Positions 43,053 to 44,625 of a stretch of DNA of 64,000 nt are shown piece by piece. This DNA is from Desulfuromonadales bacterium (GTDB lineage Bacteria > Desulfobacterota > Desulfuromonadia > Desulfuromonadales > BM103), in the NCBI GenBank assembly GCA_030145205.1, contig JAQYVZ010000019.1, positions 1 to 64,000 of the forward strand, written 5' to 3'. Position 1 is the first letter of the stretch. Each line of letters starts with the position of its first letter. The translations under genes were made by a program, and so were the position numbers. A model generated the notes under the pieces. It was not told the DNA's origin and made no database searches. It saw only the letters and a list, made by a program, of their open reading frames with translations.

Positions 43053-43337
43053 TCAACAGCACCCTCCCCCTCGGCTCAGCTTTCTCTCCCGCAACCATTC
43101 AGAAATAAATCCGGAAGCACAGCCGACTCCGGCCTCAACCGTAATCGCTGTAACCGGACAGTTCCGTGCACAGGCACCGCATTCCATGCAGGCGTCAATC
43201 TCAACAAGCACCGCCCGACTGTCTCGCAATGCAAAAACACCGTGCGGGCAAACCTCCACACAGCGACTGCAGCCGATACAGAGGGCCTGATCGTATTTCA
43301 ACGTTGCCACATTTTTCAGATAATGAAACCCATCCAT
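43053..43337 (-). CDS. hgcB: mercury methylation ferredoxin HgcB
   Basis: 94 residues. Two [4Fe-4S] motifs (CIGCSRCVEVCP and CMECGACARNCP) are followed by a conserved lone Cys in GVGCASG and by the terminal vicinal Cys pair (GGGCC at the very end), features that separate HgcB from ordinary 2[4Fe-4S] ferredoxins. HgcB reduces the corrinoid of HgcA and is thought to bind Hg(II) or methylmercury through its C-terminal Cys. It starts nine bases after the hgcA stop. Confidence 0.95.
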   Translation of the reverse strand: MDGFHYLKNVATLKYDQALCIGCSRCVEVCPHGVFALRDSRAVLVEIDACMECGACARNCPVTAITVEAGVGCASGFISEWLRERKLSRGGGCC

Positions 43338-43346
43338 CGTTTTGTC

Positions 43347-44492
43347 TCACCCCACCTGGGTCATAAGAGCCAGCCCCCAAAACAGGACGGCACTGAGCAG
43401 CGCAACCGCCATGGTCGGCAAAGCGATGCGCACTTCTTTACGGACACCGGACAAGGAGGTATAAGGCGTGGCGCCGGTAAAGTTCATGGCACAATATGCA
43501 CTGACAACGGTCAACGCCAGGATTGACCCTGCTGTTGACAACGGACTGAGTCCCTGCCCCACTGTCAAAACAAACAAAGCGTTCCAAACCAGACCAATCA
43601 GCATCCCCTTGAGCGAGAAGAGGGAGCCGGGTAGCCATGGCAACAGCAGCGGCGTCACGACCGTACCGGCAGTCACCGCTCCCAGCAGAGCGGCGCACGC
43701 CATCGTTCCCGATGCAACATCGCCAAGCATCCAACCGACAAGAAACAGCAACGCAAAAACCGGCAACAAGGCGCGCACGGACAAAACCAGTTCGACCGGG
43801 GCCAGGATCAGTCGTTCGCGCAACGAAAACGTCATCTTGCGCATGGCGGGCGTCGTCCGCATGCCGTTATCGAGGTATTCAGAAAGATCTGCTGCCCGGA
43901 GCGCTGCATAATGAACTTTAAAGCCCGTCTGTATAGCCACTTCATGAGCAGCAACACCTGGCGCACCAAGAATTGGCAACAGGATGGCTCGGTGACTAAC
44001 CAACTGCTCCAGGCCAGACTGCTGCAGGCGCTGCACCAGCTCCTCCGTCCCAAAGCTCCCCTTGCCGGCTGCGCACCAGACGTTGATGCCGAAGGTTTCC
44101 AGAATCAGCAACCAGGCCTCCCGACCGACAAGGCTGCTGCGTACGAGGTCATAACTCATCTTGTAGTTGGCTGTGACAACCACCGGAGCTTCAGGCCCGG
44201 GCTCACCGATGGCATAAAGGCCTGGCGGGACCAGGTAGGAGGAGCGCCCTATGCCCCAGCGCACTCGCCAGGAACCGATTCGATCGGAAAACGTCAGGTG
44301 AGAGGAAATTTGCGGGACACGGCCGGCCGAGGTCTGTAGCCAGCCGCAGAATCCTGGTACCCGATCTGTGATTTCTCCGCCACCGACGGAGACTTTTGGG
44401 CCTCAGCAGGGCGGCTTCTCGGTGTCTTGCTGGGAGGAATCAGGCTTCAATTCCGCGCAGGCGGTGTCCTCTCCAAGTTTATCCGTCGGCAT
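43347..44492 (-). CDS. hgcA: mercury methylation corrinoid protein HgcA, candidate selenoprotein (in-frame UGA at codon 30)
   Basis: HgcA methylates Hg(II). The cap-helix motif NVWCAAGK lies at residues 137-144 (Co-coordinating Cys140), TANYKMSYD before it, and about five membrane helices follow, with MNFTGATPYTSLSGV near the end. Only a GTG at 44264 could start the open frame, but the conserved upstream part (TSAGRVPQISSHLTFSDRIG, residues 54-73) would be lost, and that GTG has no ribosome-binding site. Continuing upstream the frame meets UGA at 44403-44405, right after a Cys codon, and then ATG 44492 with GAGAGG eight bases ahead. The motif reads PPC-UGA-GP where, as I recall, relatives often have CCGP. 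A SECIS-like stem follows the UGA. Total 381 residues. A sequencing error or nonsense mutation would be the alternatives. Confidence 0.8.
44374..44392 (-). promoter_or_regulatory. candidate bacterial SECIS hairpin in hgcA
   Basis: The mRNA forms UCUCCGUC (44392-44385), loop GGU, GGCGGAGA (44381-44374): eight pairs, one of them U-G. The loop starts 18 nt after the UGA and opens with GG, which meets the SelB-binding rules (loop 16-37 nt away, G among the first two loop bases). Confidence 0.65.
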
Positions 44493-44625
44493 CCTGTTTG
44501 CCTCTCGTTTCAGTCGTTGCGGGCATCCGCTGCCTGCCAGGCGATCAAAAAAACGACTCTATGCGTCCATTCTATCATGGCGGTTCTGCCAGCGACAGAG
44601 GCACAAAACAGAGGACGATCCACGC

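Follow-up and report, generated by a model that had tools for sequence, protein, structure and literature searches.

How does an hgcA gene whose reading frame is interrupted by UGA give rise to a complete protein, and what could the residue inserted there be for? Microbes need two genes, hgcA and hgcB, to methylate mercury (PMC5038027; PMC7305189). The hgcA gene studied here lies on a 64,000-nucleotide stretch of DNA (the window, which always means this whole stretch), and a preliminary description of it had suggested that HgcA is probably a selenoprotein. Comparative sequence analysis supports this suggestion: UGA 44405–44403 is very probably decoded as selenocysteine (Sec), making the HgcA of the window a selenoprotein. 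We prefer this reading because the UGA is conserved, Cys takes its place in some relatives, the downstream hairpin is under selection, and the Sec machinery is present in the same genome.

The hgcA reading frame

The features on which the argument rests are these:

43350..44492, minus strand: hgcA, coding for 381 residues when the UGA is read through, with predicted Sec30 (NF040863, 428 bits against a cut-off of 275)
43349–43347, minus strand: hgcA stop codon, TGA
44501..44506, minus strand: GAGAGG, resembling a ribosome-binding site, 8 nt 5′ of ATG 44492 (from the sequence)
44406..44492, minus strand: putative N-terminal extension, 29 codons 5′ of the UGA, ending KPPC (from dN/dS in relatives)
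44403..44405, minus strand: in-frame UGA, probable Sec codon, residue 30 of a CUGP motif (from UGA or Cys in relatives)
44374..44392, minus strand: SECIS-type hairpin with an 8-bp stem and a GGU loop (from folding, codon choice and covariation)
43053..43337, minus strand: hgcB, encoding a dicluster ferredoxin, directly downstream of hgcA (NF040864, 125.2 bits against a cut-off of 99)

The first 29 hgcA codons, from ATG 44492, encode MPTDKLGEDTACAELKPDSSQQDTEKPPC, with Cys29 directly before the UGA; GPKVSVGGG follows, and conserved HgcA sequence then continues to the stop, the read-through product beginning MPTDKLGEDTACAELKPDSSQQDTEKPPC-U-GPKVSVGGG. Without read-through (table 11, with ATG, GTG or TTG as starts), the frame has no opening before GTG 44264, which corresponds to residue 77; a protein begun there would omit RVPQISSHLTFSDRIG. 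The preliminary description had noted that conserved HgcA sequence extends upstream of this only start, and it does: the NF040863 match, which reaches 428.9 bits in the genome search, spans residues 59–373 of the read-through protein, and the GTG falls inside it. Codon-by-codon reading likewise bears out the rest of that account: between GTG 44264 and the UGA, which immediately follows TGC, there is no ATG, GTG or TTG (one CTG is present), and beyond the UGA 29 open codons lead to ATG 44492, with GAGAGG at 44506–44501, 8 nt upstream.

The read-through protein has the hallmarks of its family. It carries NVWCAAGKG, which we take to be the HgcA cap-helix Cys motif, with the Cys at position 140. 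In HgcA a conserved Cys (Cys93 in strain ND132) binds cobalamin as an axial ligand (PMC7305189), and the C-terminal domain comprises five transmembrane helices (PMC11588087); the AlphaFold2 model (mean pLDDT 85.2) has five long predicted helices between residues 224 and 380, in agreement with such a domain. Seven sequences of solved structures match. Four are corrinoid/iron-sulfur proteins, aligned with the corrinoid domain; three are of ferredoxin type and align with the hgcB part of P0001. None of the seven is HgcA by name. The window also holds a tmRNA gene (tag ADNDVRYALAA) at 1531–1882 on the minus strand.

The UGA codon in relatives

Is the UGA a peculiarity of one assembly? A scan of GTDB genomes returned 94 relatives, and the best 80 of them formed the analysis set. 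In these best 80 of 94 relatives the homologous codon sits 107 or 108 codons 5′ of the cap-helix motif and is TGA in 70, a Cys codon (TGC or TGT) within CCGP in eight, and unscorable in two, as one contig (L057) starts past the site and one gene (L083) lacks CxGP. The latter, the HgcA gene of a Pelotomaculum MAG, encodes a Cys-rich N-terminal region with CC and CCC. The earlier idea that Sec replaces the second Cys of a Cys-Cys-Gly-Pro motif found in relatives is supported: the Cys forms (for example L015, L017 and L078) have their CCGP at the same place and among the same neighbors, and differ in having TGC or TGT for TGA and in lacking a strictly defined SECIS-type hairpin (0 of 8). Thirteen TGA loci among the best 80 of 94 relatives belong to genomes whose labels name strains, not MAGs (Geomonas, Oryzomonas, Geotalea, Pelotalea, Citrifermentans and Geobacter), which makes an assembly error very unlikely. 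That the UGA is a sequencing error or the mark of a broken gene, as the draft state of the source genome (3.72 Mb in 317 contigs) might suggest, has a negligible chance of being right against the same-codon UGA in 70 of 80 other genomes, these 13 strain loci included.

Sequences on both sides of the UGA behave like protein. dN/dS is 0.29 over the last 12 codons 5′ of the UGA and 0.24 over 46 codons 3′ of it, pooled over 14 close, non-independent pairs (more than 80% identical) drawn from 71 UGA sequences; such values are as would be expected of translated sequence. The stretch between the UGA and GTG 44264 is kept as protein in relatives, in UGA and Cys forms alike. In the protein alignment made for the structure model (45 of 75 prepared references), four positions do not vary: Cys29, residue 30 (Sec or Cys), Gly31 and Pro32. 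For Cys29, Gly31 and Pro32 this is in part by construction, because the rows were found by that very motif: the row finder for the GTDB set required C, then Cys or a stop, then GP or AP, a pattern that 78 of the 80 satisfied.

A hairpin downstream of the UGA

After a 10-nt spacer, the UGA is followed by an 8-bp stem closed by a GGU loop that begins 18 nt past the UGA, just as originally reported. This hairpin is both the minimum free energy and the centroid structure of the folded 40 nt, at −11.5 kcal/mol. It agrees with the bSECIS model, as set out in PMC13188914, in its 3-nt apical loop with G first, the placement of this loop 18 nt past the UGA, its 8-bp stem, and an energy below −7.5 kcal/mol; no rule differs, and what the present hairpin adds is conservation through a gene family. 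As a fold alone it is unremarkable (energy z of −1.41; 16 of 200 shuffles fold equally well or better), and it is conservation that raises it above chance.

A strict rule, fixed after the first hairpins had been inspected (loop start 17–20 nt past the UGA, a G-rich loop and at least five closing pairs), is passed by 98 of 102 UGA genes (a count with three duplicates, L140 = L039, L150 = L054 and L151 = L046), by none of the eight Cys genes and by 2.6% of 4000 background UGAs; the four UGA genes that fail are L020, L088, L157 and L166. A rule of the published bSECIS type is passed by 97 of the 102 UGA genes, two of the eight Cys genes and 37.6% of 500 background UGAs, or 54.8% of 500 background UGAs with GC of at least 0.6. 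Because the hairpin energy is weak by itself and the published-type rule discriminates poorly, we rely on conservation, codon choice and covariation.

Codon choice and covariation were assessed in 71 UGA sequences (70 GTDB loci and the window). Relative to the codon usage of the same genes, codons that form the stem are strongly preferred: Ser at +5 is TCC in 51 of 55 sequences (14.0 expected), Ala at +6 is GCC in 50 of 62 (27.9), Gly at +8 is GGC in 49 of 60 (22.2), and Gly at +9 is GGA in 46 of 67 (12.1), giving z values near 11 for two of the codons when related genes are treated as independent. The eight stem pairs are intact in 84.9% of cells (77.3% in shuffled and 42–77% in slid alignments); double-change cells number 40 (13.4 in shuffles) and the covariation score is 0.276 (0.157 in shuffles), each unequalled in 500 shuffles. 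One of the five covariation measures is unexceptional: pairs in which both partners change number five, a value reached in 61 of the 500 shuffles. At the outer end of the stem, the last pair is present in just 16 of the 71 sequences. Synonymous differences amount to 0.19 within the hairpin and 0.35–0.37 downstream. Taken together, the alignments argue that the hairpin is selected at the RNA level, codon choice and base-pair changes both preserving it; the SECIS check called for at the outset, carried out as our own rule-based scan with tests of codon choice and covariation, points to a conserved SECIS-type element.

A covariance model trained on these 71 sequences, the window's own included, finds this hairpin as its single site below E 1 in the window (E 8.2e-10; the next best has E 1.7). 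Run on the phylum loci described below (74 of 80; six without a cap-helix match were left out), it recognizes eight of 31 Sec genes at E below 1e-5, at least three of these duplicating training loci. In the remaining Sec genes of the phylum the hairpin differs in sequence (GGCUC-AGGU-GAGCC is frequent), and the strict rule accepts it.

Could the UGA instead be a true stop, with HgcA translation beginning inside the frame, for example at GTG 44264, and what lies upstream being either an untranslated remnant or the code for a brief leader peptide? A table 11 frame does open at this GTG, and the NCBIfam HgcA match begins at residue 59, so the family model is silent on the first 58 residues; however, the GTG, at residue 77, lies within the model's coverage, and the stretch that precedes it, which holds a CTG but no ATG, GTG or TTG, is conserved as protein in UGA and Cys relatives. 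Together with dN/dS below 0.3 on either side of the UGA and the selection acting on the hairpin as RNA, this makes an internal start highly improbable. Sequencing error, a broken gene and an internal start were each rejected for the reasons given.

Selenocysteine machinery

Does the host have the means to read UGA as Sec? All the components named for checking in the preliminary description reside in the same genome: tRNA-Sec (76.8 bits; called tRNA-SeC with anticodon tca by ARAGORN), selA (601.4 bits), selB (401.7 bits) and selD (368.5 bits), with selA, selB and selD consecutive on one contig (C248). The grounds on which that description would have been withdrawn are thus absent in silico: the machinery is there, and relatives share the UGA. 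The selD gene, which lies behind selA and selB (L098, 1492 onward, plus strand), is itself of the Sec form, with one in-frame TGA in an SGU motif. Another contig (C82) gives a second tRNA-Sec match, of 48.2 bits against a gathering score of 47.

If the UGA is decoded as we propose, SelB with Sec-tRNA, directed by the downstream hairpin, would insert selenocysteine at UGA 44405–44403, and the product would be a 381-residue HgcA with Cys29-Sec30-Gly-Pro in a flexible tail preceding the corrinoid domain.

Across the phylum, selB scores above the cut-off in 263 of 297 genomes. Judged by E-value, it is present in all 31 genomes with Sec-type HgcA (each at E 1.1e-93 or better) and in 39 of the 43 whose scored HgcA is non-Sec, with G285 counted in both classes; the association has the right direction and is weak because nearly all genomes have selB. 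In the GTDB set, selB is over the cut-off in six of the eight genomes with Cys forms and in that of the Pelotomaculum MAG; with seven of these nine genomes having it, the Cys forms are not simply due to loss of the machinery.

Published predictions and distribution in the phylum

Is Sec in HgcA new? The preliminary description knew of no such report, and here it has to be corrected. Table 1 of a 2026 AEM review lists the mercury methylation corrinoid protein HgcA, with a CU motif and one Sec, as a high-confidence selenoprotein prediction, with references to Zhang and Gladyshev (2008) and to Haft and Gwadz (2023) (PMC13188914); a 2024 PNAS paper states that, according to recent analyses, some hgcA and hgcB homologs may encode selenoproteins, also citing Haft and Gwadz, 2023 (PMC11588087). 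The known form (NF040863, CU) belongs to the same family and has the same motif and a single Sec; at the level of family, motif and Sec number we found no difference. We found no wording related to HgcA in the main text of Zhang and Gladyshev (2008) or in Peng (2016), and no experimental proof of Sec in HgcA among the literature matches listed, from a library outside which most subscription papers lie. The observation made on the window thus has good support, but Sec in HgcA was a published prediction before it. Its distribution in the phylum, the repeated switching between Sec and non-Sec forms, and the existence of Sec forms that lack the neighboring Cys may go beyond published accounts.

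In a sample of 297 genomes drawn evenly from the phylum, HgcA scores over the cut-off in 83, at 84 places, 80 of which were examined (the window's own copy and the fragments G137, G152 and G083 were left out). Six loci (L121, L124, L126, L129, L149 and L178) have no match to the cap-helix pattern; among the 74 that can be scored, 31 have UGA at the homologous position, 105–111 codons 5′ of the motif, and 43 do not, the latter including L144, assigned by hand as non-Sec since its UGA is at distance 104 and the surrounding sequence has no similarity. By a coarse rule that reads a fixed stretch, in some rows pre-stop or masked (L130), 19 of the 43 non-Sec genes have CC nearby, 12 have one Cys and 12 have none. 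On a quick tree of 154 HgcA rows, built without bootstrap from the alignment past the Sec column, switching between Sec and non-Sec requires 14 changes (43.3 when shuffled), with at least six changes forced by starred branches; the state has therefore changed repeatedly.

Seven of the 102 Sec genes have a residue other than Cys in front of the UGA (L112, L122, L127, L133, L143, L156 and L166), so the CU motif is not universal. Three of the seven (L127, L133 and L156) have Cys directly after the UGA; the other four do not. All seven pass the published-type hairpin rule and six pass the strict one (L166 fails).

Possible roles of the selenol

If Sec is inserted, what does it do? In the AlphaFold2 model residues 29–32 have pLDDT below 50, and Cys29-Sec30-Gly-Pro is predicted to lie in a flexible, unstructured N-terminal tail, 110 residues before Cys140, the equivalent of the axial Cys. 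The axial-Cys loop (136–144) likewise has pLDDT below 50, and because it too is poorly placed, the model does not give the position of the tail relative to the corrinoid. We infer that Sec, usually with an adjacent Cys, would bind Hg(II) or CH3Hg+ near the corrinoid as a mobile arm, which would pass mercury between the methyl-cobalamin site and either solvent or the Cys tail of HgcB. We put the chance of such a mercury-handling role at about even; counting against it are the 12 of 74 HgcA genes that, by the coarse rule, have neither Cys nor Sec in the region.

The partner protein offers a parallel. A C-terminal Cys pair of HgcB has been proposed as a mercury carrier (PMC7305189; PMC11588087), and the window HgcB ends in CC. 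HgcB also has a predicted Sec form (NF040864, with GVGU), listed in Table 1 of PMC13188914 with reference to Haft and Gwadz, 2023; the window HgcB differs from it in having Cys rather than Sec at the Cys73-equivalent (GVGC). Sec at this position is absent from all 142 rows (of 155) matched by a pattern that permitted a stop; each has Cys.

The main rival to mercury handling accepts the Sec and assigns it a redox or regulatory task: Cys and Sec could act as a switch, or selenium could gate the synthesis of HgcA. A redox function is considered the likely one for most uncharacterized selenoproteins (PMC13188914), and termination at the UGA when selenium is lacking would yield just a 29-residue peptide. 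Yet a vicinal Cys-Sec redox pair is disfavored because seven of the 102 UGA genes have no Cys before the UGA, and four of them have none directly after it either; moreover, the comparable flexible Cys pair of HgcB is proposed to move Hg (PMC7305189). We regard a redox or regulatory role as unlikely, if well short of negligible. Returning to mercury handling, the loss of the neighboring Cys in these seven genes, in which UGA and hairpin stay, allows a tentative proposal, to which we give somewhat less than even chances: the key mercury-handling ligand of HgcA may, in much of the phylum, be one selenol carried on a mobile arm at the N terminus.

Possible consequences for methylmercury formation

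With GTG 44264 as the first common start codon past the UGA, full-length HgcA, and with it the formation of methylmercury in this organism, would depend on selenium. Selenium supply would then be a direct biochemical control on methylmercury formation, and, should the single-selenol proposal be true, methylmercury formation would hinge on selenium supply and the Sec machinery together. Selenium also binds mercury, an effect separate from control through Sec-HgcA. If the Sec reading is true, any gene model or recombinant construct begun past the UGA would be truncated, and gene models of this kind would lack the proposed Sec ligand. Selenium-free cultures would call for care if full-length HgcA needs Sec; one recent study of Geobacter sulfurreducens left selenium out of the medium (PMC12915048). 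The confirmed methylator G. sulfurreducens PCA is absent from the best 80 of 94 GTDB relatives. In the phylum sample, one genome (G285) has two hgcA copies, one with the UGA (L143) and one without it (L153), possibly a selenium-dependent and a selenium-independent pair.
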